From positions 1 through 39,556 of IMG/VR virus record IMGVR_UViG_3300038954_000748: a stretch of DNA of 39,556 nt; one strand, 5' to 3'. Positions 3,160-36,647 of the stretch are shown here, one piece after another; the stretch's first letter is position 1, and each line of letters opens with the position of its first letter. Source of the DNA: a virus. The position numbers and the translations under genes are program-made. The notes beneath the pieces are model-generated. The model did no database searches and was not told the origin of the DNA. It saw only the letters and a list, made by a program, of their open reading frames with translations.

Positions 3160-4168
3160 ATGATCAACCGCCGCAACTGGAAGGACGTGCAGGAGCATCT
3201 CGACTATCGCGCGGATGTGCACCGGGACGCGGAGAGTACGCAGGTGACGCGCCGGTCGTCGCTGCGGTTGCTGTTGCGGTGGGCGGATGCGACGTTGTTG
3301 GGTGAGGCGCCGGGGATCCGACCGACGCTGCCGGTGTGGCTGGCGCGGCAACCGGGGCGGGATGCCCGGATGCCCGCACAAAGCGCGGGGTCGCCTGCAG
3401 CGACTAAACATCCGGTGCGAAGGCTAGCGCCTTCGACGCAGGAGAATGTGTTGAGTACGGTGCGGGTGTTCTACCGGTGGGCGTTGATCGCGCATCCGCG
3501 ACGGTATCGGCAGGTGACGCCGTTGTGGTTGGATAGTTTGTGCGTGGTGCCGCAGCCGAGTCAGCCGGATGCGCGCGATGTGTACACGGTGGACGAGGTG
3601 CGGGCGCTGGCCGGGGTGGAGGCGGGGACGATGGCGCTGCGTCGGGTGCAGGCAGTGGACGAGTCTCGACGTGCGGACGAAGCGCAACAAGACGGCGACG
3701 ACGTGGTTGTTGGACGTGCCGGATCTGCTGGAGGTGGTCGCGGGGTGGGATGGGTACGTGCGCGCGCGGCTGCCCTCGCGGTCGATGTGGTATCCGAATC
3801 TGGAAGAGGTGCCCGGTCCGAAGGACGTGGTGGCGGTGCATGAGGCGAATCCGGGCCGCGCGCACGGTCTGCGGTACGATCTGCAGGATTTGTGTGAGGC
3901 GGCGGGGGTGGTGTACCGGCCTCCGCATGCGTTCCGACATGGGCACGTGGTGCACGCGCTGGAGCACGCGCGGTCGCCTGCGGATTTGAAGGCGATCAGT
4001 CAGAATGTGATGCACGCGAATCTGGCGACGACGGACGGGGTGTACGGGATTCTGCAGGATGGCGAGGTGGGCGCGCGGATCGGGCGGATGGGCGGAGATG
4101 GTGCTGGGGAAGCGGATGTGGTCGCGGAGTTGGAGCGGTTGTTGATGCGGTTGAAGAATGGGGGTTAA
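3160..4168 (+). pseudogene. int: Tyrosine recombinase (integrase), internal deletion and frameshift
   Basis: The N-terminal core-binding domain is read from ATG 3160 and continues to about 3645 (TVDEVRALAGVEAGTMALRR). The catalytic domain resumes in another frame from about 3660 (LDVRTKRNKTATTWLLDV) to the stop at 4166-4168. The catalytic beta-hairpin Lys region (RTKRNK), the HxxRH box (PHAFRHGH, near 3925-3948), the second His region (MHANLATT) and the Tyr nucleophile (codon 4043-4045) are all present. The segment that should carry the first catalytic Arg (a SGxRxGE/A-type box) is missing at the join. Both the loss and the frame change are explained by one deletion whose size is not a multiple of three. 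NPE copy 3 lies in frame in the N-terminal part. The product cannot be an ordinary active integrase unless the deletion is an assembly fault. Confidence 0.85.
3366..3435 (+). repeat. NPE copy 3, in frame inside the integrase
   Basis: Outer arms CCGGATG/CATCCGG; hairpin 1 CCCGC...GCGGG; hairpin 2 GTCGC...GCGAC; TAAA; hairpin 3 CGAAGGC...GCCTTCG. It is translated without a stop as a Pro/Ala/Ser/Lys-rich linker (MPAQSAGSPAATKHPVRR). Confidence 0.88.
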
Positions 4169-4846: not shown

Positions 4847-4918
4847 ACAGAGACCCCTGCGGGGGTCAGCGCAAAAAACGCGCTGACTAAATCTCTGTTG
4901 CGCCTAACGGCGTTAGCG
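4847..4918 (+). repeat. NPE copy 4
   Basis: Outer arms ACAGAGA/TCTCTGT; hairpin 1 CCCCTGCGGGGG; hairpin 2 GTCAGCGC...GCGCTGAC; TAAA; then CTAACGGCGTTAG as hairpin 3. It is nearly identical to copy 17 at 20182 except in hairpin 3, so the two are close relatives or recent duplicates. Confidence 0.9.
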
Positions 4919-8283: not shown

Positions 8284-8953
8284 GCATAAGGGATCGGGCC
8301 GGACGCCTGCAGAGAGCGCAGGGTCGGACGAAAAGCGTCCGACTGAACGTCCGGCACTGGGGCAGCCTACGCTGCCCGGCGTGCCGGATGCGGCGGGGAA
8401 TGCGTACGATGAGGCGTTGATGGCGTCGGAGCGGGCGCGATTGATGTTTGAGGACGACGCGGCGCACGCCGAGTGGTTGGACCAGTATTTCGCGCTGATC
8501 GCGGAGGGGTGGAGTTGGCGGCAGGCGGTGTATATGATCTGGGCCTCGCAGCCGAAGCCGCGGACGCCCGCGACGGAGAAGGCGCTGGCGACGGAGGTGC
8601 TGGGGTTGACGTCGGCGCGGTCGATTCGCACGTGGAAGGCGGAGAATCCGCACATGGAGTTGCGGATCAGGAAGTTGAGTCTGGCGGCGCTGGGGCACGC
8701 GCGGAATGAGGTGCTGCAGGCGTTGATTGAGAGCGCGCAGACGCCGAGTTATCGGAACTATCGGGATCGGGAGTTGTTTCTAAAGATGACGGGGGACTAT
8801 GTGCCCAGGGAGCGGCTGGATGTGGGCGCGGTATCGGCGGAGCAGGATCTGGCGGCGTTGAGTGCTGAGGAATTAGCGGCGCAGGCGCAAATTCCTGTTG
8901 ATCATGGTCGGGCACCTGCAGAAAACGCAGGGTCCGCAAAGGACGCGGACTAA
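8276..8953 (+). CDS. terS: Terminase small subunit (putative)
   Basis: 225 residues, directly before the large terminase. The centre has a helical DNA-binding-like region (about 75-125: WSWRQAVYMIWASQPK, then TSARSIRTWKAENPHM) and a following helix typical of subunits that pick the packaging site. Two NPE copies are part of its coding sequence: copy 5 in the N-terminal 30 residues (read as GRTPAESAGSDEKRPTERPA) and copy 6, which forms the last 15 codons and the TAA stop. The ends of the protein are therefore element-derived, leaving a core of about 175 residues. Confidence 0.72.
   Translation: MSKHKGSGRTPAESAGSDEKRPTERPALGQPTLPGVPDAAGNAYDEALMASERARLMFEDDAAHAEWLDQYFALIAEGWSWRQAVYMIWASQPKPRTPATEKALATEVLGLTSARSIRTWKAENPHMELRIRKLSLAALGHARNEVLQALIESAQTPSYRNYRDRELFLKMTGDYVPRERLDVGAVSAEQDLAALSAEELAAQAQIPVDHGRAPAENAGSAKDAD
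8298..8377 (+). repeat. NPE copy 5, in frame inside small terminase
   Basis: Outer arms GCCGGACG/CGTCCGGC; hairpin 1 CCTGC...GCAGG; hairpin 2 GTCGGACG...CGTCCGAC; TGAA; hairpin 3 GGGCAGC...GCTGCCC. Read in the frame where TGAA falls as (AC)T GAA, so no stop arises. Confidence 0.9.
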
Positions 8954-9008
8954 ATGCCCGAAACACCTGCGGTGACTAAACGTCCGGTGCGCGCTGCGGG
9001 GCAGCGCG
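8908..9008 (+). repeat. NPE copy 6 with a fused partial copy, across the terS/terL junction
   Basis: Outer arms TCGGGCA/TGCCCGA; hairpin 1 CCTGC...GCAGG; hairpin 2 GTCCGC...GCGGAC; TAAATG gives the terS stop and the terL start. It is followed by CACC/GGTG, then GACTAAACGTCCGG and a CGCGCTGC/GCAGCGCG hairpin, which look like the right half of another copy. Confidence 0.85.
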
Positions 9009-10540: not shown

Positions 10541-10550
10541 TTTGGGGCTT

Positions 10551-10621
10551 GGCCACTCGCAAACGGCGCGAGGTCCGGCAGAAAACGCCGGACTAAATGG
10601 CCGATGCGCCTCTACGGGGCG
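10551..10621 (+). repeat. NPE copy 7, upstream of portal
   Basis: Outer arms GGCCA/TGGCC; hairpin 1 CTCGC...GCGAG; hairpin 2 GTCCGGC...GCCGGAC; TAAATG; hairpin 3 CGCC...GGCG. It begins 11 bases after the terL stop. Confidence 0.88.
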
Positions 10622-10626
10622 TTGCT

Positions 10627-11940
10627 ATGTCTAACAAGATCAGTTCGATTTTCGACCGGGATGAGTTCAAGCACTTGCGCAAGGCGTGGGATGCGCGGCG
10701 CCGGGAGTTGAAGGCGCGGGCGGCGTACTACGACGGGACGGTGTACCGGCAGATGCAGGCGTTGTTCGGTCCGCTGTGGCCCAAACTGTACCGGGGTGTG
10801 AAGCCGCTGTTCCTGCCCTTTTCGCGGGCGGTGAATGTGGACGCGGGGATTATTCCGGGCGGCTGGGCGCTGCCCGAGGACGCGCCCGCGATCTGGACGG
10901 CGGCGCGAGATCGGGTGTTCCGCGATAGCCATTGGGACGCGAAGGGCGTGCTGTGGGTGCACTACGGCGCGCAGTACGGGATCTCCATGTTGAAGGTGGT
11001 GGATGATCGAGCGGCGCGGCGCGTGCGGCTGCAGCCGGTGGATCCGCTGCGGGTGATGCTGGTGGGCCGGTCGGTGTACGACGCGGGCGCGGAGATGAGT
11101 GTGTATGTGGACAAGCGCCGGACGCCCCTGCGGGGGTCGCCTGGGGCGACTAAACGTCCGGCACGCAAGCAAAATGCGCTTGCGGAATACGCCGAAGTCA
11201 CGACGGCGACGCAGGTGCGGACGTTTGTGGACGGCGCGCCGATGGGTGTGGGCGGGCGCGAGGCGGTGTATGCCAACGATCTGGGCGTGGTGCCGTACGT
11301 TCAGAATCCGCACATTGACGACGGGACGGCGCTGGGCGAGTGCACGTACGCGCGGGCGATTGAGATGTTGGATGAGGTCAACGAGTTGGCTTCGTACCTG
11401 GCGGATATTATCAAGAAGCACGCGGAGCCGCAGTGGGCGATCAGCGGGGCGGAGCCCTCGGAGTTGGAGAAGAGCGGCGATAATGCGTGGTTTTTGCCGC
11501 AGGACGGCGACGCGAAGGCGCTGGTGGCGAAGGTCGATATTGAGGGCGTGCTGAATTTCGTCAAACTGGTGCGCGATAACGTGCACGAGGCGCTGCCGGA
11601 GACGTCGTTTACGGAGTTACGGAAGCGGGAGCGGGTGGCGACGGCGACGCTGGAGTTGCAGATGCTGGAGTTGACGCTGAAGATTCAGCGGGCGCGGCCC
11701 AATTATGACGCGGCGCTGGCCAAGGCGCTGCGGCTGGCGGGCCAGGCCGGGCAGCAGATGGGGATTCCGGGGCTGGCGGTGCTGGATAGTGAGGATCTGC
11801 AGTTGGATAACGAGCGGCGCGTGCTGCCGTTGGACCCGGAGGTGGCGCTGCGGTTGGAGAGTCTGGCGCTGAGTATTGAGAGTCAGCGGAAGGCGATAGC
11901 CCTTCAAGATGAGTTGGGTGATGACAGGAGTAGGGAGTAA
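10627..11940 (+). CDS. Portal protein
   Basis: 437 residues from ATG 10627; an in-frame ATG at 10597 inside NPE copy 7 would add 10 residues, but most NPE-preceded genes start after hairpin 3. The position after terL and before an Mu F-like head protein, the length and the central alpha/beta region (TALGECTYARAIEMLDEVNELASYL) followed by long helices (RERVATATLELQMLELTLKIQRARP) fit a portal, the ring at the head vertex through which DNA passes. NPE copy 8 inserts a Lys/Arg/Pro-rich stretch near residue 165. The stop codon lies in a GGAGTAG-type repeat. Confidence 0.82.
   Translation: MSNKISSIFDRDEFKHLRKAWDARRRELKARAAYYDGTVYRQMQALFGPLWPKLYRGVKPLFLPFSRAVNVDAGIIPGGWALPEDAPAIWTAARDRVFRDSHWDAKGVLWVHYGAQYGISMLKVVDDRAARRVRLQPVDPLRVMLVGRSVYDAGAEMSVYVDKRRTPLRGSPGATKRPARKQNALAEYAEVTTATQVRTFVDGAPMGVGGREAVYANDLGVVPYVQNPHIDDGTALGECTYARAIEMLDEVNELASYLADIIKKHAEPQWAISGAEPSELEKSGDNAWFLPQDGDAKALVAKVDIEGVLNFVKLVRDNVHEALPETSFTELRKRERVATATLELQMLELTLKIQRARPNYDAALAKALRLAGQAGQQMGIPGLAVLDSEDLQLDNERRVLPLDPEVALRLESLALSIESQRKAIALQDELGDDRSRE
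11117..11184 (+). repeat. NPE copy 8, in frame inside portal
   Basis: Outer arms GCCGGACG/CGTCCGGC; hairpin 1 CCCCTGCGGGGG; hairpin 2 GTCGCC...GGCGAC; TAAA; hairpin 3 CGCAAGC...GCTTGCG. Translated as RRTPLRGSPGATKRPARKQN. Confidence 0.92.
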
Positions 11941-14852: not shown

Positions 14853-14876
14853 AACAAGGTTGAATAGGTGGTGCGC

Positions 14877-14941
14877 GACCACTCGCAGAATACGCGAGGT
14901 GCGGCTAAAAGCGCCGCACTAAATGGTCGATGCCCTACGGG
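14877..14941 (+). repeat. NPE copy 9, upstream of scaffold
   Basis: Outer arms GACCA/TGGTC; hairpin 1 CTCGC...GCGAG; hairpin 2 GTGCGGC...GCCGCAC (note GTG/CAC instead of GTC/GAC, a compensated change); TAAA; hairpin 3 CCCTACGGG, whose 3' end forms the Shine-Dalgarno of the next gene. Confidence 0.88.
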
Positions 14942-14949
14942 AGGTAAGG

Positions 14950-15438
14950 ATGCCAGACGAGAATAAGGACGATAAGCAGCAAGAGCAGCAGCATTCACAG
15001 GATGGACAGCAGGCGCCGGGGCCGGTGCCGTACGAGCGGTTCAAAGAGGTCAATGACCGGGCGCGGCAGTTGGAGGAGCGGCTGCAGGCGCTGGAGGACG
15101 CGCAGGAGAGCGCCGAGGAAAAGCGGCTGAAGGAACAAGAAAAGTGGCGCGAGTTGGCCGAGAAACGCGAGCGGGAGTTGGAGCAGGAGCGGTTGTCACG
15201 GTTGCGGCTGGAAGTGGCGGCAGAGGCGGGGATTCCCCCCGCGCTGGCGGGGCGGCTGCAGGGTGAGGATCGGGAGAGTATGCTGGAGGATGCCGAGCAG
15301 GTGAAGGCGTTCTTGAAGCCGGACGAGGGCCCGGGGAATCCACCGGCGCCGGAGGGCGGCGAGCCGACGCTGGATCTGGAGAGTATGACGCCGGAGCAGA
15401 TTCGGGAGCATGCGGGGGAGTTGTGGGGGAGTAGTTAA
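14950..15438 (+). CDS. Scaffolding protein
   Basis: 162 residues from ATG 14950, chosen because GGGAGG precedes it by 5 bases; an upstream ATG at 14923 lies inside NPE copy 9. The protein is very Gln/Glu-rich with a long coiled coil (about residues 30-95: RARQLEERLQALEDAQE and following), an Ala/Gly hinge and an acidic C-terminal end. This composition and the place just before the coat gene are typical of phage scaffolds, which template prohead assembly and then leave. Confidence 0.85.
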   Translation: MPDENKDDKQQEQQHSQDGQQAPGPVPYERFKEVNDRARQLEERLQALEDAQESAEEKRLKEQEKWRELAEKRERELEQERLSRLRLEVAAEAGIPPALAGRLQGEDRESMLEDAEQVKAFLKPDEGPGNPPAPEGGEPTLDLESMTPEQIREHAGELWGSS

Positions 15439-15439
15439 A

Positions 15440-15467
15440 AGTTGCAGGTTACAAGTTGAAAGTTGGC
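15440..15467 (+). repeat. Four tandem 7-bp units, RGTTGMA family
   Basis: AGTTGCA, GGTTACA, AGTTGAA, AGTTGGC; the last unit runs into NPE copy 10. It starts two bases after the scaffold gene. Confidence 0.88.
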
Positions 15468-15518
15468 CGGGGACTCTACGAGGTCCCTACGGGACTAAAT
15501 CCCCGGCACACTGAAGTG
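15466..15518 (+). repeat. NPE copy 10, upstream of major capsid gene
   Basis: A compact copy: outer arms GCCGGGGA/TCCCCGGC; hairpin 1 CTCTACGAG; hairpin 2 GTCCCTACGGGAC; TAAA; hairpin 3 CACTGAAGTG. Confidence 0.88.
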
Positions 15519-15593: not shown

Positions 15594-16493
15594 ATGGCAA
15601 ATATTACGAGTACGCAGTTGAGCAACAGTATTCCGACGATTGTGGCGGCACAGGCGCTGGGGTATCTGAAGGCGAACACGGTGATGGCGCAGTTGGTGGC
15701 CCGTGACTGGGACAGCGACGTGGCGCAGTATGGGCAGACGGTGAATATTCCATTCGCCGGATCGTTGAGTGTCAACGATAAGAGCGAGGGCAGCACGGTG
15801 ACGCTGCAGCAACCGTCCGATTCGGCGGTCAGTGTCACGCTGAACAAGCACAAGGAGGTATCCTTCTTGCTTGAGGATCTGGCCAAGGCGTTGTCACGTC
15901 CCGCGTACATCATGAAGTACATGGAGCAGGGAATGGCAAAACTCGCTGAGGAGATCGACGGCGATCTGACGGCGTTGTATTCCGGTTTCTCCCAGAGCAT
16001 CGACGCGACAGCCGGGATGGACGTGGATGATTTCCGTGAAGCGCGCCGCCAGTTGAACGCGGCCAAGGCGCCGTTGGCAAACCGTGTGGCGGTGCTGCAC
16101 GAAGACGCCGAGTACGCGCTGCTGGGGATCGAGGAGTTCATTAACCGGGACTACGAGTTGGGCGACGCGCCGCAGGGCCTGATCAATGCGCTGACGGGGC
16201 GGTTCGTGGGCTTCAACATCTTCATGGATCAGAAGGTCGCCACGGCGGCCAGCGAGTGCAAGAACCTGTTCTTCCAGAAGGACGCGATGGTGCTGGCGAC
16301 GCGCCCGCTGCCTCAGGTCGAGGATGGCATGGGCGTTGTGCAGCGTGTGATGGCCGAAGACGGCATTGGGTTGCGCGTGACGATGTCCTACAGTGCGGAC
16401 TACCTGGGTGCCCAGGTGACGATTGACGTGCTGTACGGGGTCGCGGAGTTGCGCGATAACCACGGGGTTGTGGTACGGACGACGGAGATTTAG
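15594..16493 (+). CDS. Major capsid protein
   Basis: 299 residues from ATG 15594 (GGAGAGG upstream; a GTG at 15579 is in frame but too close to that ribosome site). The start ANITSTQLSNSIPTIVAAQALGYLKANTVMAQLV, seen here as an N-terminal helix before GQTVNIPFAG, and the later EEIDGDL, AEYALLGIEEF and YELGDAPQ segments fit the HK97-fold coat proteins of the P22-like branch. Position after scaffold supports this. It is the main shell protein. The downstream half includes the usual beta-rich end (GVAELRDNHGVVVRT). Confidence 0.88.
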   Translation: MANITSTQLSNSIPTIVAAQALGYLKANTVMAQLVARDWDSDVAQYGQTVNIPFAGSLSVNDKSEGSTVTLQQPSDSAVSVTLNKHKEVSFLLEDLAKALSRPAYIMKYMEQGMAKLAEEIDGDLTALYSGFSQSIDATAGMDVDDFREARRQLNAAKAPLANRVAVLHEDAEYALLGIEEFINRDYELGDAPQGLINALTGRFVGFNIFMDQKVATAASECKNLFFQKDAMVLATRPLPQVEDGMGVVQRVMAEDGIGLRVTMSYSADYLGAQVTIDVLYGVAELRDNHGVVVRTTEI

Positions 16494-16498
16494 GTGAA

Positions 16499-16526
16499 AG
16501 TTGCAAGTTGAAAGTTGCAGGTTGGC
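16499..16526 (+). repeat. Four tandem 7-bp units joined to NPE copy 11
   Basis: AGTTGCA, AGTTGAA, AGTTGCA, GGTTGGC, then directly CGGGG of the next NPE arm. The same heptamer-to-NPE junction occurs at 15440-15473. Confidence 0.85.
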
Positions 16527-16551
16527 CGGGGGTTCGCTGTGGATCCCCGGC
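16525..16551 (+). repeat. NPE copy 11, reduced to the outer stem
   Basis: GCCGGGG and CCCCGGC are retained, but hairpins 1 and 2 and the TRAA are gone. Reads as a decayed or deleted copy. Confidence 0.6.
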
Positions 16552-17046: not shown

Positions 17047-17180
17047 GCCAGGGACCTGCAGCGCTGAGGGCCTTTCAGGGTCGCGGGACGTAAACACGTC
17101 TTTAGCGACTAAACCCTCAGCATAGGAAATACGCAGGGTCCGCACAGAACGCGGACTGAATCCCTGGCATGCCTGACGGC
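17047..17180 (+). repeat. NPE copy 12 (host copy of a nested pair)
   Basis: Outer arms GCCAGGGA/TCCCTGGC; hairpin 1 CCTGC (17055) with GCAGG (17133); hairpin 2 GTCCGC...GCGGAC; TGAA; hairpin 3 GCCTGACGGC. The hairpin 1 loop, usually 7 bases, holds a whole second element at 17063-17121. Confidence 0.85.
17063..17121 (+). repeat. NPE copy 12b, inserted in the loop of copy 12
   Basis: Outer arms GCTGAGGG/CCCTCAGC; hairpin 1 CCTTTCAGG; hairpin 2 GTCGC...GCGAC with an extra GACGT/ACGTC stem; TAAA. A complete element nested within another. Confidence 0.87.
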
Positions 17181-17194
17181 AAGGAGAATGTTCT

Positions 17195-17461: not shown

Positions 17462-17529
17462 GCCGGGGACCTGCAGACAACGCAGGGTCCGCACAGAACG
17501 CGGACTGAATCCCCGGCACGCCTTCGGCG
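17462..17529 (+). repeat. NPE copy 13
   Basis: Outer arms GCCGGGGA/TCCCCGGC; hairpin 1 CCTGC...GCAGG; hairpin 2 GTCCGC...GCGGAC; TGAA; hairpin 3 CGCCTTCGGCG. Its hairpin 2 to TGAA part equals that of copy 12, so these two form a subgroup. Confidence 0.92.
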
Positions 17530-18379: not shown

Positions 18380-18443
18380 ACCGAGGCCCCTGCGGGGGTC
18401 GCCCAAACTGCGGGCGACTAAACCTCGGTTGCGCCTGGCGGCG
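18380..18443 (+). repeat. NPE copy 14
   Basis: Outer arms ACCGAGG/CCTCGGT; hairpin 1 CCCCTGCGGGGG; hairpin 2 GTCGCCC...GGGCGAC; TAAA; hairpin 3 CGCC...GGCG. Copy 18 at 20701 is identical up to hairpin 3. Confidence 0.93.
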
Positions 18444-19121: not shown

Positions 19122-19151
19122 GTAGGGTCATGTTGGGTCACAAATTAAGGC

Positions 19152-19218
19152 ACAGACACCCGCAGAATACGCGGGGTCGCCAAACTGCGGCGACTAAATG
19201 TCTGTTGCGCCTGCGGCG
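19152..19218 (+). repeat. NPE copy 15
   Basis: Outer arms ACAGACA/TGTCTGT; hairpin 1 CCCGC...GCGGG; hairpin 2 GTCGCC...GGCGAC; TAAA; hairpin 3 CGCCTGCGGCG, overlapping the Shine-Dalgarno region of the next gene. Confidence 0.92.
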
Positions 19219-19226
19219 AGGTGTGT

Positions 19227-19649: not shown

Positions 19650-19660
19650 TGGGGGGAGCA

Positions 19661-19739
19661 CGGACGCCCCTGCGGGGGTCCCTGTGGGACTGCGCGCTGC
19701 GCGCGCCCGTCCGATGCACCTACGGTGACGCCTGCGGCG
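19661..19739 (+). repeat. NPE copy 16 (subfamily with extra GC hairpin)
   Basis: Outer arms CGGACG/CGTCCG; hairpin 1 CCCCTGCGGGGG; hairpin 2 GTCCCTGTGGGAC; instead of TRAA an extra GCGCGC...GCGCGC hairpin; then CACCTACGGTG and CGCCTGCGGCG hairpins. Copy 20 shares this variant. Confidence 0.85.
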
Positions 19740-19781: not shown

Positions 19782-20162
19782 GTGGTGACAAAGTATTCTG
19801 GCAGTGATTTGAGTGTGACGTTCAATTCGGTGGATTTGAGCGATCACGGGGGCTCGCTGGATGTGCCCGAGGAGCATGAGGCGCCGGACGTGACGGGATT
19901 TGGTCAGGATGATGGGAATTATATTCCTGGCGGGGTGACGGATCGGAAGGCGACGTTGGAGGGGTTTGACGACTCCGAGGGGACGAAGTACGCAGCGGTT
20001 GCGCCGGGCACGTCGGCGAATCTGGTGTATACGCCGGACAGCGGGATGACGACGTATACGGTGACGGCGATCGTGACGAAGCGCGAGCGCGGGTTCAAGG
20101 TGCGGGACAAGGTGACGTTGAAGGTGGAGTTTCAGTTGAGTGGGAGTGTGGCGACGTCGTAG
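19782..20162 (+). CDS. Tail tube protein, paralogue 1
   Basis: 126 residues from GTG 19782 (a second GTG follows at 19785). The beta-rich fold has SLDVPEEHEAPDVTGFG, RKATLEGFDD and ends with KVTLKVEFQLSGSV, as in small major tail proteins that stack into the tail tube. The next gene is a paralogue, about two-thirds identical by eye, with the same motifs. One may be the main tube and the other a decorated or terminal ring. Confidence 0.8.
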   Translation: MVTKYSGSDLSVTFNSVDLSDHGGSLDVPEEHEAPDVTGFGQDDGNYIPGGVTDRKATLEGFDDSEGTKYAAVAPGTSANLVYTPDSGMTTYTVTAIVTKRERGFKVRDKVTLKVEFQLSGSVATS

Positions 20163-20181: not shown

Positions 20182-20248
20182 ACAGAGACCCCTGCGGGGG
20201 TCAGCGCAAAAAAACGCGCTGACTAAATCTCTGTTGCGCCTGGCGGCG
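20182..20248 (+). repeat. NPE copy 17
   Basis: Outer arms ACAGAGA/TCTCTGT; hairpin 1 CCCCTGCGGGGG; hairpin 2 GTCAGCGC...GCGCTGAC; TAAA; hairpin 3 CGCC...GGCG. Differs from copy 4 mainly by one A in a loop and in hairpin 3. It sits between the two paralogous tail-tube genes. Confidence 0.93.
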
Positions 20249-20262
20249 AGGGAGGATGTGCG

Positions 20263-20661
20263 ATGACGAAGTATAGCGGCAGTGATTTGTATATTACGTT
20301 CGGCGGGACGGTGATCAGCGATCACGGCGCGAGTCTGGATGTGCCCGAGGAGCACGAGGCGCCGGATGTGACGGCGTTCGGTGACGACGACGGGGAGTAT
20401 GTGCCCGGCGGGGTGACGCACCGGAAGGCGACGTTCGAGGGGTTTGACGACAGCACGGAGACGGTGTACGACGCGCTGGCGCCCGGAACGGAAGCGGAGT
20501 TGGTGTATCAGCCGCAGGGGAACGTAGCGGGTGATCCAACACACACGGTGACGGCGATCGTGACGAAGCGCGAGCGCGGGTTCAAGATCGGCGACAAGGT
20601 GGCGTTGAAGGCAGAGTTTCAACTGACGGGCAGTGTGGCGGATGGGACGGTGGCGGCGTAG
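20263..20661 (+). CDS. Tail tube protein, paralogue 2
   Basis: 132 residues from ATG 20263 with GGGAGGA upstream. Shared with paralogue 1: TKYSGSDL, SLDVPEEHEAPDVT, PGGVT, RKAT, EGFDDS, HTVTAIVTKRERGFK and KAEFQLTGSV. It has a 6-residue insertion around GNVAGDPT and an Ala-rich end (DGTVAA). The better ribosome site suggests it may be the more abundant subunit. A tandem duplication followed by divergence is the simplest origin. Confidence 0.82.
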   Translation: MTKYSGSDLYITFGGTVISDHGASLDVPEEHEAPDVTAFGDDDGEYVPGGVTHRKATFEGFDDSTETVYDALAPGTEAELVYQPQGNVAGDPTHTVTAIVTKRERGFKIGDKVALKAEFQLTGSVADGTVAA

Positions 20662-20700: not shown

Positions 20701-20761
20701 ACCGAGGCCCCTGCGGGGGTCGCCCAAACTGCGGGCGACTAAACCTCGGTTGCCCTACGGG
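20701..20761 (+). repeat. NPE copy 18
   Basis: Outer arms ACCGAGG/CCTCGGT; hairpins 1 and 2 identical to copy 14; hairpin 3 CCCTACGGG, whose end gives the Shine-Dalgarno GGGAGG for the tail chaperone gene. Confidence 0.93.
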
Positions 20762-21138: not shown

Positions 21139-21341
21139 CGAGCGCGCGCGTTCTGGAGCGGTTGGGGCGGTATCTGTGGATTGAGGAAGGTTCGCCTCCC
21201 TGGTCGTGGGTGGAGTTGCAGTTGATTAAACTGTATCACTGCACGCACCGGGAGTTGCAGGAGATGGACGCGCGGCAGGCGTTGTTGGATTTGGAGATGG
21301 AGGCGCTGGCGGCGAAGGTTGCGAGGATGCGGCGCTCATGA
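20770..21341 (+). CDS. Tail assembly chaperone, frameshifted long form (GT-like)
   Basis: A -1 shift at 21129-21135 joins the 122 codons of the short form to the -1 frame from 21135 to the stop at 21339-21341, adding 68 residues (LTSARVLERLGRYLW, then PPWSWVELQLIKLYH) for about 190 in all. The -1 frame has no good start of its own: its only early ATG, at 21093, lies inside the short form without a ribosome site. The stop codon lies in a heptamer repeat array. Confidence 0.82.
21129..21135 (+). promoter_or_regulatory. -1 ribosomal frameshift site A AAA AAC
   Basis: The canonical slippery heptamer is in the correct phase relative to the chaperone start at 20770 and is followed directly by an in-frame TGA. 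Slippage yields the long tail chaperone. Confidence 0.88.
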
Positions 21342-21361
21342 GTCAGCAGTCATGAGTCAGG
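21334..21361 (+). repeat. Four tandem 7-bp units, AGTCATG family
   Basis: Units CGCTCATG (imperfect), AGTCAGC, AGTCATG, AGTCAGG. The TGA stop of the long tail chaperone is inside it. Confidence 0.85.
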
Positions 21362-23476: not shown

Positions 23477-23547
23477 ACGGGCACTCGCAAAATGCGCGAG
23501 GTCAGCGCAGAAAGCGTGCTGACTGAATGCCCGTTGCACCTACGGTG
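23477..23547 (+). repeat. NPE copy 19
   Basis: Outer arms ACGGGCA/TGCCCGT; hairpin 1 CTCGC...GCGAG; hairpin 2 GTCAGC...GCTGAC; TGAA; hairpin 3 CACCTACGGTG, adjoining the ribosome site of the next gene. Confidence 0.92.
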
Positions 23548-26792: not shown

Positions 26793-26891
26793 AGGTGCGG
26801 TTGGTTGCCCACTGCCTACGGCAGGTCGCCTAACAGCGACTAAATGGGCAACACAAGATCAGGCGTGGGTTACATACAGCGAGGTGCGGTT
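26787..26891 (+). repeat. 16-bp direct repeat flanking NPE copy 21
   Basis: ACAGCGAGGTGCGGTT is present at 26787-26802 and again at 26876-26891, on both sides of NPE copy 21. The second copy carries the ribosome site and TTG start of the next gene. Confidence 0.85.
26804..26852 (+). repeat. NPE copy 21
   Basis: Outer arms GTTGCCCA/TGGGCAAC; hairpin 1 CTGCCTACGGCAG; hairpin 2 GTCGC...GCGAC; TAAA. No hairpin 3. It begins one base after the left 16-bp direct repeat. Confidence 0.9.
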
Positions 26892-27217: not shown

Positions 27218-27286
27218 ACCGACACGCCTTCGGCGGTCAGGCAAGAAAGCGCCTGACTAAATGTCGGTTGTAATAACCTGGTGGTT
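27218..27286 (+). repeat. NPE copy 22
   Basis: Outer arms ACCGACA/TGTCGGT; hairpin 1 CGCCTTCGGCG; hairpin 2 GTCAGGC...GCCTGAC; TAAA; hairpin 3 AACCTGGTGGTT, three bases before the next ATG. Confidence 0.9.
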
Positions 27287-28620: not shown

Positions 28621-28621
28621 T

Positions 28622-28656
28622 AGTTATAGGTTGCACGTTGCAGGTTGCAGGTTAGC
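28622..28656 (+). repeat. Five tandem 7-bp units between converging genes
   Basis: AGTTATA, GGTTGCA, CGTTGCA, GGTTGCA, GGTTAGC. It fills the 31-base gap between convergent operons and overlaps the stop end of the leftward gene. I see no intrinsic terminator here. Confidence 0.85.
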
Positions 28657-29428
28657 GGCGGCTGACTTCCACGCCCTGGGCATTGTAGAGCACGGCGGGG
28701 TCAGGTTCGCTGTTGTTCCAGATGTTGTTATCAAAGCCGCAACTATAGCCATCTGATCCGGTCATGGCGTAAATGCGCAGCGTCTGACCGGGCTGTAACA
28801 CGCCCGCAAGTGCACAGGCTTGATTTCCCTTCTCTGAGACCAGTCTCCAGCCGTTGAGGTCCTGGGGCTGGTCTCCGCTGTTTTGAATGTCCACAAATTC
28901 CGCGACCTTGTTCTTGGCGACGATAACGACACGCGGGCCGATAGGAGCAGGCGTCGCGGTCGGCGGCGCCGGGGTTGCCGTGGCTGAGGGTAACGGTGTG
29001 GCGGTTGGCAGCGCAGTGGCTGTGGGTGGACGTGTGGCCGTAGGCGTGAGCGTCGCCGTGGCTGTAGCCGTGGGGCGCGGCGTGCGGGTGGGCGTCGCCG
29101 TCGCTGTGGACGTGGCAGTAGGGGTGCCTCCTGTGGCCGTGGCGGTTGACGTCGCGGTTGGCGTAGTGGATGGGGTGTGTGTGTAGGTAGGCAGCAGGCC
29201 AACTTCGCGCAGACTGGCGTCTATCAGTTCCACTGCGAAACACCCAAGGCACAAAACGCTGATGAGTAGGATGATGGCTACGAGGGCATTGCTACGCACG
29301 CCATTTTTGCCAATGGGAAGCGTAAATTGGATATTGTGTAGCCACTTCATGACTGCTCGAACCGCAGAAATCAGCGCGCCGATGATAGCAAAGATAAAAC
29401 AGCCATACCTCTTTTTATTATTGGCCAT
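28652..29428 (-). CDS. Membrane-anchored surface protein with Thr/Pro stalk and lamin-tail domain
   Basis: 258 residues. A hydrophobic segment (about 10-26) and a stronger membrane helix (about 49-70, ALVAIILLISVLCLGCFAV) anchor it. Residues 83-160 are a Thr/Pro/Ala-rich stalk (TPTATSTATATPTRTPRP-type repeats). The C-terminal 90 residues fit a lamin-tail beta-sandwich (VVIVAKNKVAEFVDIQN, LNGWRLVSEKG, VLQPGQTLRIYAM). The stalk style is typical of Chloroflexota surface proteins. It is the last gene of the repressor operon, so it is probably made in lysogens as a lysogenic-conversion or exclusion factor. That role is inference. Confidence 0.8.
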   Translation of the reverse strand: MANNKKRYGCFIFAIIGALISAVRAVMKWLHNIQFTLPIGKNGVRSNALVAIILLISVLCLGCFAVELIDASLREVGLLPTYTHTPSTTPTATSTATATGGTPTATSTATATPTRTPRPTATATATLTPTATRPPTATALPTATPLPSATATPAPPTATPAPIGPRVVIVAKNKVAEFVDIQNSGDQPQDLNGWRLVSEKGNQACALAGVLQPGQTLRIYAMTGSDGYSCGFDNNIWNNSEPDPAVLYNAQGVEVSRR

Positions 29429-30431: not shown

Positions 30432-30503
30432 GCCGGGCTGGCGCAATGGTAGCGCATCCGCGTCGTAAGCGGACGATTCCGGGTTCGAGTCCCGGGCCTG
30501 GCT
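30432..30503 (+). tRNA. tRNA-Thr (anticodon CGT)
   Basis: Complete cloverleaf of 72 bases without encoded CCA: acceptor GCCGGGC/GCCTGGC with one G-T pair, D-stem GCGC/GCGC, anticodon stem TCCGC/GCGGA with loop GTCGTAA (CGT at positions 34-36, preceded by T33), five-base variable region, T-arm CCGGG/CCCGG with loop TTCGAGT. It reads codon ACG, which is very frequent in the phage structural genes. Confidence 0.93.
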
Positions 30504-30548
30504 CTGCGGCGCTGCGAGCGTCGCGCAACAAAATCTCCTCCTTTGGGT

Positions 30549-33645: not shown

Positions 33646-33654
33646 AATTGAACA

Positions 33655-33689
33655 TGTTGCAGGTTGCAAGTTACAAGTTGAACGTTATG
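33655..33689 (+). repeat. Five tandem 7-bp units, NGTTGMA family
   Basis: TGTTGCA, GGTTGCA, AGTTACA, AGTTGAA, CGTTATG, starting 10 bases after the helicase stop. Confidence 0.87.
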
Positions 33690-33982
33690 ACGCTTGTTGC
33701 TGTGCGAAATGGTTAGAATTGGGCGGGCTGGGGCGACGCGCGGGGGCCGGTGGGTGTGATGAATGTGACGAAATATTGGCCCGTTCTAAAAGTTTTCTCT
33801 TATACGGCCTCGCGTAAGGAGATTCTTGGAAACACGTTCAGTTTCGTCACATTCGTCACATTTTACCTTATTTTTTAGGTGTTTTTTGAAGTCGGTACGA
33901 CGTTTTAAGAATTTTGATTGCAAAGAGCGGGTTTTGAGCCACGGGACAGTTCGAATGGTGAAGGTTAGAAGAGAGGGTCAAA
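33690..33982. other. Gene-free AT-rich region between helicase and primase
   Basis: About 300 bases without a credible gene. It carries the long inverted repeat at 33755-33860 and an AT-rich stretch around 33860-33935. It may be an origin or a control region for the downstream replication genes. Confidence 0.5.
33755..33860. promoter_or_regulatory. Long inverted repeat built of TGTGACGAA units
   Basis: The left arm 33755-33773 (TGTGATGAATGTGACGAAA) and right arm 33842-33860 are reverse complements at 18 of 19 positions, 68 bases apart. Each arm itself is two direct units (TGTGAYGAA). Four binding sites in symmetrical pairs suggest a replication-initiator or repressor target. Function is inference. 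Confidence 0.7.
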
Positions 33983-34010
33983 CGTCATGAGTCAGGAGTC
34001 AGGAGTCGGG
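33983..34010 (+). repeat. Four tandem 7-bp units, AGTCAGG family
   Basis: CGTCATG, AGTCAGG, AGTCAGG, AGTCGGG. The ATG of the next small gene is in the first unit and its first seven codons are repeat-derived. Confidence 0.85.
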
Positions 34011-34185: not shown

Positions 34186-34314
34186 GTGAGCGGTCGGATT
34201 GATGTTGAGGGGGTTGGTTGGGGACCTGGCCGGACACTCGCAACCTGCGCGAGGTCAGCCAAACGATGGCTGACTAACATGGGGATTTCTGCGAGGGTCT
34301 GCTACGCAGACTAA
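34186..34314 (+). pseudogene. Duplicated 5' end of the primase gene
   Basis: GTG 34186 and the next eight codons (SGRIDVEG) repeat the start of the primase gene at 34359 with only two base differences over 26 bases. The frame then runs into NPE copy 23 and ends at its inner TAA (34312-34314). It is a relic of a duplication that came with the insertion of NPE copy 23. Confidence 0.8.
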
Positions 34315-34338
34315 ATCCCCATTGAGTTTATGTCCGGC
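34229..34338 (+). repeat. NPE copy 23 (host copy of second nested pair)
   Basis: Outer arms GCCGGACA/TGTCCGGC; hairpin 1 CTCGC...GCGAG; hairpin 2 GTCAGCC...GGCTGAC; TAA; then a second element inserted before the 3' outer arm. It separates the duplicated primase start from the real one. Confidence 0.85.
34279..34322 (+). repeat. NPE copy 23b, nested in copy 23
   Basis: Outer arms ATGGGGAT/ATCCCCAT; a weak hairpin 1; hairpin 2 GTCTGCTACGCAGAC; TAAA. It lies between the TRAA position and the 3' outer arm of copy 23. Confidence 0.82.
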
Positions 34339-34358: not shown

Positions 34359-35774
34359 ATGAGCGGGCGGATTGATGTTGAGGGTTTGAAGATGCAGGCG
34401 GATCTCGGGGTGATTGTGGAGCATTATCTGGGGGCGCCGGTGCGGGTGAATGGGCGCTGGTTGTGGTGGCGGTGTCCGTTCCACGAGGAGAAGTCGGCGA
34501 GTTTTGGGGTGACGCCGGACGACGGGCGGTTTAAGTGTTTCGGCTGCGGGGTGATCGGCGATGTGTTTGAGTTTGTGCAGCGGATGGAGCGGCTGGGGGA
34601 GAATCCGAGGGATTTTATCAAGGCGGCGGAGAAGGTGGCGGCGCTGGTGGGCACGACGCCCCTGCGGGGGTCCGCTGCGCGGACGAAACGTCGGGCAGGG
34701 GCGACTAAACGTCAGACACGCGCGCCGGGTGCGCGCTGGCAGGAGGCGGCGCGGCGGGTGGTGGCGCAGGCGGAGCGGTGGTTGTGGGATCCGGTGGGCG
34801 CCGGGGCGCGGCGGTATTTGATGGAGCATCGGGGCTTGACGGAGGCGACGATCCGGGCGTGGCGGTTGGGGTGGTGGCCGAATACGACGTATGAGGCGCC
34901 GGAGGGGTGGGGGTTGGACCGGCAGCGGGATGTGTGGCTGCCGCAGGGGCTGGTGATGCCGGGGATTGTGGGGGCCGGACGCTCGCAAGTGGCGCGAGAT
35001 GGCACTGTCTGGTATGTAAAGTTTCGTCCGGCGAAGCGAGTGGGGTTTAGTGGGAAATACTATGGCGTGCCGGGTGGCAGGACGGCGTTGTTGGGCTCGG
35101 ATGCGTGGGATGATGATTTGGATCTGATGTTGTTGGAAGGGGAGATGGATTTTTACACGGTCTGGCAGGTGTTGCGCGGGTATGTGAACGCGGGGACGCT
35201 GGGTGGCGCGGCGAAGGGGCGGCAGGGTGAGGCGGTGCAGTTTGGCCGCTGGATGGGGGCGGTGCTGCGGTTTGATCGGATTTATGCGGCGTTTGATCTG
35301 GATACGGCAGGGCAGCAGGCGCGGGATGTGATGGCGGGCGCGAGCGAGCGGATTGTGCCGGTGGCGGTGCCGTACGGTGAGGATGTGAACGGGTTTTATG
35401 TGATGGGCGGGGATTTGCGGACGTGGTGGGGGACGGTGGCCCAGAGCCTGCAGACAACGCAGGGTCGGGCAAAGGGCGCCCGACTGAACTCTGGGCATGC
35501 AAGCATGGGCGCGGCTGGCCGGAGATTTGGGGCGCGGTCTGACGCTCACAACAAGCGTGAGGTCGGCGCAAAAAACGCGCCGACTGAACGTCAGACACAC
35601 GGGTTCCCCGTGACGTTGGTGTTTGAGCCGGGAGAGGGGTTGGCGATTGCGGGGGCGTATCGGGAGTTGCCGGACGGTCGGATTGCGGCGACGTTTGAGA
35701 GCCGCGAGGCGTTGGAGGCGACGATTGAGGCGACGAAGGCGATTGGGATGTATCCAGGCGTCACGAGTCATTAG
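34359..35774 (+). CDS. DnaG-type primase with CHC2 zinc finger and TOPRIM domain
   Basis: 471 residues from ATG 34359. Zinc finger Cys39, His42, Cys60, Cys63 (RCPFHEEKSASFG, then RFKCFGCGVIGD). TOPRIM acidic motifs LLEGEMD (258-264) and AFDLDTAG (311-318). It makes RNA primers for the phage replisome together with the SF3 helicase upstream. Four NPE copies (24-27) are read through in frame, adding linkers after the zinc domain (about 98-126), near residue 206, and twice near the C terminus (about 361-418), so roughly a quarter of the protein may be element-derived. The stop lies in a heptamer array. Confidence 0.88.
   Translation: MSGRIDVEGLKMQADLGVIVEHYLGAPVRVNGRWLWWRCPFHEEKSASFGVTPDDGRFKCFGCGVIGDVFEFVQRMERLGENPRDFIKAAEKVAALVGTTPLRGSAARTKRRAGATKRQTRAPGARWQEAARRVVAQAERWLWDPVGAGARRYLMEHRGLTEATIRAWRLGWWPNTTYEAPEGWGLDRQRDVWLPQGLVMPGIVGAGRSQVARDGTVWYVKFRPAKRVGFSGKYYGVPGGRTALLGSDAWDDDLDLMLLEGEMDFYTVWQVLRGYVNAGTLGGAAKGRQGEAVQFGRWMGAVLRFDRIYAAFDLDTAGQQARDVMAGASERIVPVAVPYGEDVNGFYVMGGDLRTWWGTVAQSLQTTQGRAKGARLNSGHASMGAAGRRFGARSDAHNKREVGAKNAPTERQTHGFPVTLVFEPGEGLAIAGAYRELPDGRIAATFESREALEATIEATKAIGMYPGVTSH
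34652..34736 (+). repeat. NPE copy 24, in frame inside primase
   Basis: Outer arms CGACG/CGTCG; hairpin 1 CCCCTGCGGGGG; hairpin 2 GTCCGC...GCGGAC; GAAA in the TRAA place; then a second partial unit GCGACTAAACGTC and a GCGCGC/GCGCGC hairpin 3. Confidence 0.82.
34974..35032 (+). repeat. NPE copy 25, decayed, in frame inside primase
   Basis: Outer arms GCCGGACG/CGTCCGGC and hairpin 1 CTCGC...GCGAG remain; hairpin 2 is no longer paired and the TRAA has become TGTAAAG. It reads as an old copy now evolving as coding sequence. Confidence 0.65.
35439..35508 (+). repeat. NPE copy 26, in frame inside primase
   Basis: Outer arms GCCCAGAG/CTCTGGGC; hairpin 1 CCTGC...GCAGG; hairpin 2 GTCGGGC...GCCCGAC; TGAA; hairpin 3 CATGCAAGCATG. 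Read in a different frame (SLQTTQGRAKGARLNSG) from copies 5 and 8. Confidence 0.92.
35537..35612 (+). repeat. NPE copy 27, in frame inside primase
   Basis: Outer arms GTCTGACG/CGTCAGAC; hairpin 1 CTCAC...GTGAG; hairpin 2 GTCGGCGC...GCGCCGAC; TGAA; hairpin 3 CACGGGTTCCCCGTG. Only 28 bases after copy 26. Confidence 0.92.
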
Positions 35775-35786
35775 TCATGAGTCAAT
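35759..35786 (+). repeat. Four tandem 7-bp units, AGTCATG family
   Basis: CGTCACG, AGTCATT, AGTCATG, AGTCAAT. The TAG stop of the primase gene is inside it. Confidence 0.87.
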
Positions 35787-35798
35787 GTGAGGTGTGAA

Positions 35799-36647
35799 AT
35801 GCCGTTTTATGTGGAGCGGGTGGAGCCGTGTGCGGTGTGTGATGAGTCGGGGTGGGTGCAGCATCCGGCGTGGGCGTTGTACTGGGCAGAGCATTCAGAG
35901 GGGCTTTCGGGCGTGGATCAGGATATGCAGTGGTTTCGCGGTCAGGGTTGGCCGGTGTACTGCGAGGATGATTTGCCGCCGGAAGAGGTGGAGTGTAGTG
36001 AGTGCGACGGTACGGGGTTTGTGTCGGTGGAGTATGATCTGCGGGATGCGTTGCGGGAGATCAGCAGTGATGAGTCAGGAGTCAGAAGTCAGGAACTGCG
36101 TGTGGCGTCGGAGAAGATTGAGGTGATACGGTCGGTGCTCCGCCGAGCGAAAGGCGCGGGGGTGGAAGCGGCGGATAACGCGCTGGGGTTGGTGGACGAG
36201 ATTGCCTGGGATCTTCAGGAGTGGGAGCGGCAGTATAACCGGGAGCAGGCAAGGGCATATTTGGCCGAAGAAAAGTTGCGTGAGTTGGCTGAGGGCCTTT
36301 TAGGGTCGCCTACGGCGACTAAACCCTCAGCACAATCGCAGATTGATGCGCTGCCGGTGGTGGTGTGGTTTGCGGAGCGGATGGGGGAGCGGTTGTTGGG
36401 GATGGGTGGCGGGTGGAATAGTGCGGAAATATCGTATCTGATGCGACGGTTAGGGATGCAACACGAGCGGTTGGGTGAGGTGCTGGCGCGCGGCACGGAT
36501 GATCCGCAGGATGTTGTTGGCGAGGCCGCACAGGTGGCGGTGTACGCGCTGCTGATTGCGGATCGCTGGAATCGAAGCCGGTTGGCGGTGGAGCGTGTGA
36601 TGGATTGGACGGACGCGGAGTTGCGGGCGCTGGGCGCGGAGGTATGA
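35799..36647 (+). CDS. Zinc-binding DnaJ-like Cys-rich protein
   Basis: 282 residues from ATG 35799 (GAGG about 8 bases upstream; GTG 35787 in frame). Cys pairs PCAVCDESGWVQHP and ECSECDGTGFV follow the CxxCxGxG style of DnaJ central zinc fingers. The rest is helical with a later segment (LMRRLGMQHERLGEVLARGT) of unknown role. A heptamer array is read in frame near residue 93 and NPE copy 28 in frame near residue 165-178, splitting the protein into modules. Downstream of replication genes; could be a replication accessory factor. Confidence 0.68.
   Translation: MPFYVERVEPCAVCDESGWVQHPAWALYWAEHSEGLSGVDQDMQWFRGQGWPVYCEDDLPPEEVECSECDGTGFVSVEYDLRDALREISSDESGVRSQELRVASEKIEVIRSVLRRAKGAGVEAADNALGLVDEIAWDLQEWERQYNREQARAYLAEEKLRELAEGLLGSPTATKPSAQSQIDALPVVVWFAERMGERLLGMGGGWNSAEISYLMRRLGMQHERLGEVLARGTDDPQDVVGEAAQVAVYALLIADRWNRSRLAVERVMDWTDAELRALGAEV
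36073..36093 (+). repeat. Three tandem AGTCAGG units inside a coding region
   Basis: AGTCAGG, AGTCAGA, AGTCAGG, translated in frame as part of ESGVRSQEL. This heptamer array is read through as coding sequence. Confidence 0.82.
36288..36331 (+). repeat. NPE copy 28, in frame
   Basis: Compact copy: outer arms GCTGAGGG/CCCTCAGC; hairpin 1 CCTTTTAGG; hairpin 2 GTCGCCTACGGCGAC; TAAA. Translated as GLLGSPTATKPSA. Its outer arms match those of nested copy 12b. Confidence 0.9.

Follow-up and report, generated by a model that had tools for sequence, protein, structure and literature searches.

Both bacteria and organelles are known to carry palindromic mini-elements, whose way of moving is mostly unproven. 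The Rickettsia palindromic elements (RPE) are bacterial palindromes of 105-146 bp that occur in and between genes and are read in frame in conserved proteins (PMC2229807). The GC clusters of yeast mitochondria (GC42) and other palindromic or double-hairpin elements of organelles are short, GC-rich and subject to rapid turnover, and at homologous sites they occur both alone and merged (PMC4478555). REP/REPIN sequences and the ends of IS200/IS605 elements (TnpA_REP, TnpA_IS200) are hairpins present in many copies, mostly between genes (PMC6006769), and the Correia, ERIC and RUP repeats, which are bacterial MITEs, are larger and have terminal inverted repeats and a target-site duplication (PMC2229807).

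The palindromic mini-elements described here, which are very probably mobile, have a three-way junction, reside in a phage, and offer a nested insertion that is directly visible. They resemble the RPE in being read in frame in the genes for the portal and an integrase-like protein and at the C-terminus of a small-terminase candidate, and are set apart from the published description of the RPE (105-146 bp) by a unit of ~45-66 nt, the three-way junction, nesting and an observed turnover. The GC clusters belong to mtDNA and are flanked by putative target-site duplications (AG or ACT), whereas the one phage insertion event that we could delimit has none, a property that separates it from the MITEs as well and that it shares with IS200/IS605; the likeness to MITEs lies in small, non-autonomous repeats of which some enter genes. 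As with REP and IS200/IS605 sequences, the phage hairpins could be handled as single-stranded DNA (ssDNA), are mostly intergenic and are present in many copies; however, the listed copies lack a conserved GT[AG]G 5' of their first stem, and a REP is a single hairpin rather than a three-way junction. The closest analogies are the RPE for in-frame gene insertions and the GC clusters for turnover and merging, neither of which matches in size, structure or site duplication. Among openly licensed papers we found no report of such elements in phages.

The phage record and its family of elements

The window, by which we mean the whole analyzed stretch of 39,556 nt, is IMG/VR record IMGVR_UViG_3300038954_000748. 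Its two ends have 256 nt in common with two mismatches, and this terminal repeat suggests that the genome is complete. The phage encodes a P22-like coat protein, terminase, portal and tape measure, with all likely genes on the + strand, and a Chloroflexota host is likely because relatives of the coat protein include contigs from Anaerolineae and Kouleothrix assemblies. A tRNA-Thr (CGT) gene lies at 30432-30504, and two neighboring genes (19839-20036 and 20317-20514) have a 198-nt stretch in common (78% identity), apparently through gene duplication.

The family unit of ~45-66 nt forms a three-way junction of three abutting, almost perfectly paired helices with zero unpaired bases between them. 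Its consensus order is P1 (7-8 bp), H1 (3-5 bp), H2 (5-8 bp), a 4-nt linker TRAA and P1', with an H1 loop of 7 or 3 nt as a rule, an H2 that starts with GTC in nearly every copy, and conserved columns (C/GGTC...GACTRAA) around the junction. A trailing hairpin 3' of the element is frequent, and similar ones follow most intergenic copies. At E < 0.03, a covariance model of the family (R1) matched the window 26 times, each time on the + strand; our site list also has 26 entries, with nested pairs counted once and 19660-19714 added. A strict structural scan gave 20 matches in the window versus none in five mononucleotide-shuffled windows. Pairing within the family is 97.5%, against 70.6% in shuffles, and doubly changed pair cells number 95 against 27, with many of the pair replacements needing transversions on both sides. 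Across distinct simple bodies, Watson-Crick pairing accounts for 398 of 400 pairs and G-U for one, a rarity unlike RNA under pairing selection alone and one that would fit pairing at the DNA level or copying from arm to arm. Several hairpin loops are of the UNCG type (TGCG, TTCG, TACG), which is very stable as RNA. A scan of the window against Rfam up to E 5 found no match to the family, with tRNA alone matched.

By a rough gene map, in which ~14% of the genome is noncoding, 16 of the 26 sites are mostly noncoding (p 2e-8), and many of the copies between genes begin no more than ~40 nt past a stop codon, with 13-40 nt left between their end and the next start, by a likely ribosome-binding site. 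The copies that are not taken up below are as follows, each from the covariance model R1 with the exception of 19660-19714, which comes from the comparison with a relative, L032:

1488-1535, + strand, intergenic copy
2054-2109, + strand, copy that overlaps ORF 1655-2101 (weakly supported) at its end
4847-4898, + strand, intergenic copy, near-identical to 20182-20234
10549-10604, + strand, intergenic copy between terminase and portal
14875-14930, + strand, intergenic copy
15467-15506, + strand, intergenic copy of the short subtype
18380-18429, + strand, intergenic copy shared with L032
19660-19714, + strand, variant with an extra hairpin in the junction linker (GCGCGC-TGC-GCGCGC), absent from L032
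20182-20234, + strand, intergenic copy
20701-20750, + strand, intergenic copy
23477-23534, + strand, intergenic copy
26805-26851, + strand, intergenic copy
27218-27268, + strand, intergenic copy

The window also has repeats of other types, namely intergenic runs of GTTGAAAGTTGCAAGTTGCAGGTT (family D3; 16491-16531, 15432-15472, 2489-2543, 28621-28661 and 33654-33694) and a short repeat, GTCATGAGTCAGGAGTCAGG (family D17; 21335-21361, 33984-34010, 35760-35786 and 36067-36093), at gene ends and within ORF 35787-36647.

The sole other contig found with the family is L032 (IMGVR_UViG_3300037504_001396, 4,217 bases), which is 87% identical to the window on the capsid side, 91-96% over most of the rest and ~70% past ~3,800. 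The family model had no match in ~1.05 Mb of other relatives, and a nucleotide search of phage and plasmid collections gave none. Four pattern scans of IMG/VR, with patterns that match just some of the window copies, returned L032 alone as a family member. Six matches from one of these scans are copies of a single coding-like repeat whose P1 is poor (21.1 bits each) and a seventh, L122, had no model match, while the matches of another scan scored 15-17 bits; none of these was assigned to the family. The covariance model found the family in 0 of 400 Chloroflexota genomes (14 candidates scored per genome), a generic pattern that matches just five window copies occurred, across 400 Chloroflexota genomes, at about the level of a reversed control, and a specific pattern was found in 0 of 249 genomes of the class of L080. 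These scans, each limited in sensitivity, revealed no host that carries the family.

Nested elements and an empty site

The following features bear on nesting:

17047-17168, + strand, outer element of copy 12, P1 GCCAGGGA (17047-17054)/TCCCTGGC (17161-17168)
17063-17121, + strand, inner element in the H1 loop of copy 12, P1 GCTGAGGG (17063-17070)/CCCTCAGC (17114-17121)
17169-17181, + strand, trailing hairpin TGCCTGACGGCA of copy 12, then AAGGAG and the next gene
17463-17516, + strand, simple paralogue of the copy 12 outer element, H1 loop AGACAAC (covariance model R1)
36289-36330, + strand, free-standing sister of the copy 12 inner element (GCTGAGGG type), in frame within ORF 35787-36647
19152-19205, + strand, empty site, the L032 ortholog of which (~3251-3354) has a clean 51-nt nested insert in the junction linker
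34230-34337, + strand, other compound element of the window, a 52-nt ATGGGGA-type element (34278-34329) between GACTAA and ATGTCC of an outer three-way junction

The initial annotation had reported a complete second element inside the H1 loop of copy 12 with the CCTGC/GCAGG stem intact, and direct reading, fold and covariance model all bear this out. The outer stem (17055-17059/17133-17137) encloses a loop of 73 nt (17060-17132) instead of 7, and is followed by the outer H2, GTCCGC/GCGGAC (17138-17156), and the linker TGAA. The inner element has the H1 CCT-TTC-AGG, the H2 GTCGC...GCGAC with an additional apical hairpin (GACGT-AAAC-ACGTC), and the linker TAAA, and is detected by the covariance model alone (17064-17120, 28.7 bits, E 5e-6). 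The nested fold has a z of -6.5 as DNA and -6.0 as RNA, and zero shuffles equal it. The statement that this loop is normally about 7 bases long applies to the long-H1 subtype, but not to the other subtype, which has H1 loops of 3 nt.

The simple paralogue, 300 nt downstream, is 95% identical to the outer element over 44 shared nt and differs from it by compensating changes in P1 (CCAGGGA/TCCCTGG in copy 12 versus CCGGGGA/TCCCCGG), and the free-standing sister, 19 kb away, matches the inner element in P1, GGGTCGC and GCGACTAAACCCTCAGCA parts. Because a simple outer form and a free inner-type form both exist, we infer that the outer copy was present first, as had been proposed. An insert delimited as CGCTGAGGG...CAGCATAGGA (66 nt) would leave the loop AGAATAC, as at 19152 and 14875. 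Copy 12 is thus probably a nested insertion, in which a small non-autonomous palindromic mobile element entered the H1 loop of a family member. Relatives with an ordinary short loop at copy 12, which the initial annotation expected, were not found, the site being occupied by a different compound element in L032 and by no element in L004, L005 and L006.

Direct evidence that nesting reflects mobility comes from another copy, 19152-19205. Between window 19146-19225 and L032 ~3245-3375 the outer element and the downstream gene are the same, and L032 has 51 extra bases (CATGGGGACCTCTGCGAGGTCTGCTACGCAGACTAAATCCCCATTGAGTTT) at GACTAA^ATGTC, with borders that cannot be shifted and, in this one event, no target-site duplication. 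The insert is itself a family member (model match L032 3298-3340); with possible donors it has just ~6 nt in common on the left flank and next to nothing on the right, and it is still exact. Its inner type occupies the same junction position in two more outer elements with other stems (window 34278-34329, and L032 1146-1196 within outer element 1094-1205). Since the insert-free state matches the simple copies, the difference at 19152 more likely arose by insertion than by loss. Precise deletion is less likely, as without the insert the site has the family consensus seen in simple copies, and homologous recombination between outer elements is less likely as the shared flanks amount to a few nt.

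Element content differs at five of the six sites in the stretch common to the window and L032. Following the coat gene, a simple hairpin in the window stands against a full element in L032; after 17446 there is one element in the window versus two in L032; and at 19660 an element in the window has no counterpart in L032. The element at 18380 is the same in both, identical except in the outermost base pair region. Bodies and trailing hairpins also vary separately: the bodies of L032 547-603 and 1510-1566 differ at one base and their trailing hairpins on both arms, and 18380-18429 and 20701-20750 have near-identical bodies with different trailing hairpins. On the evidence of one clean empty/filled pair and two family-bearing contigs, which reveal fast turnover between close relatives, we consider it very probable that the elements of this family are mobile.

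Elements within genes

Several elements lie within genes:

11118-11188, + strand, element and trailing hairpin in the portal gene (alignment to 12 relatives)
3366-3415, + strand, element in the integrase-like gene (ORF 3160-3843)
8908-8961, + strand, element at the 3' end of the gene in the small-terminase position, adding a C-terminal tail, with the element TAA as stop codon
8299-8354, + strand, element near the 5' end of the gene in the small-terminase position, in frame
34652-34717, + strand, element and partial second copy in the primase gene, right after the Zn-ribbon domain
34975-35031, + strand, degenerate copy in the primase gene (17.9 bits)
35440-35595, + strand, two elements (35440-35495 and 35538-35595) in the C-terminal part of the primase gene, in frame

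The portal insert encodes ~22 residues (RTPLRGSPGATKRPARKQNALA) directly before EYAEV. The portal proteins of 12 relatives were aligned (L004, L014, L013, L006, L025, L005, L008, L022, L027, L030, L011 and L080), and in 11 the segment is clearly shorter between the same aligned flanks; that of L004 is of middling length, reading QD-VAWNNA then AGGDPY, and is unrelated in sequence to the element. The family model had no match at the portal loci of the relatives. In the integrase-like gene, L073 lacks ~23 residues of the element segment and L004 lacks most of it; this gene (3160-4168) is apparently split, with overlapping frames (3160-3843 and 3569-4168) that each have weak integrase matches. 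In L073 and L004 the gene that precedes the large terminase stops three residues past AQIPVD; in the window it reads AQIPVDHGRAPAENAGSAKDAD, with tail and stop codon both derived from the element. No relatives of the primase gene were found in IMG/VR or among 25 relative contigs. In six of seven read-through copies the frame through the linker is ACT AAA, ACT GAA or ACG AAA, which avoids a stop codon, and the copy at 35440 is in another open frame.

Possible routes of spread and their meaning

With G-U pairs nearly absent and no duplication made, our first choice is that the unit would be copied as a folded single strand of DNA. The lack of a duplication, the near-perfect Watson-Crick hairpins and the single orientation of the copies would fit handling of ssDNA by a Y1-type enzyme, although orientation cannot separate transcription from replication here, as all likely genes are on the + strand. 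The phage record matched neither a Y1 transposase model (PF01797) nor a reverse transcriptase model; an enzyme of either type would therefore have to work in trans, and it may be provided by the host or a co-infecting element. Members may often enter one another because an exposed junction or loop is a good target. We tentatively favor such an ssDNA mechanism in trans, IS200/IS605- or REP-like, as a plausible route without regarding it as probable.

Spread without transposition, through template switching in replication and short-homology recombination between elements that would also perfect the stems, appears rather unlikely. Copying from one arm to the other gives perfect stems with doubly changed pairs, bodies and trailing hairpins are shuffled among copies (18380 versus 20701), and entire intergenic regions differ from L032. 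However, such a route accords poorly with an exact 51-nt insert that has so little flank homology (~6 nt on the left, almost none on the right) to possible donors, with an insert at the same position in three different outer elements, and with the portal and integrase genes of relatives, which have no element to recombine with.

We find less to recommend copy-and-paste at the RNA level, in which folded RNAs would move by reverse splicing or through reverse transcription by a host enzyme, and consider it unlikely. Yeast mitochondrial GC clusters are suspected to move as folded RNAs, and the orientation of every copy with the likely genes, the absence of a target-site duplication and the several UNCG-type loops would suit this route; against it are the single G-U pair in 400, which is unlike RNA under pairing selection alone, and a phage without a reverse transcriptase match. 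It is improbable that the elements are functional RNAs (processing, stabilization or translation-coupling signals) and copy 12 a locally expanded regulatory hairpin, as the position of many intergenic copies between stop codon and likely ribosome-binding site would allow, given the differences between close relatives at five of six sites, the ~1 Mb of relatives without copies, and the several copies within genes, one of which provides the stop codon.

It is conceivable, if somewhat doubtful, that these three-way-junction elements of ~50 nt are a new mobile kind, one that recognizes and enters its own folded junctions, can be translated through within essential phage proteins and is moved by an undescribed enzyme. 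Two closely related phages here provide one site in both its filled and its empty state, with exact borders, and they also display nesting, turnover and the invasion of portal, integrase and terminase genes. Were the mechanism found, it would become possible to test how some of the smallest mobile elements move, and phage proteins would be seen to gain new peptide segments from this source.
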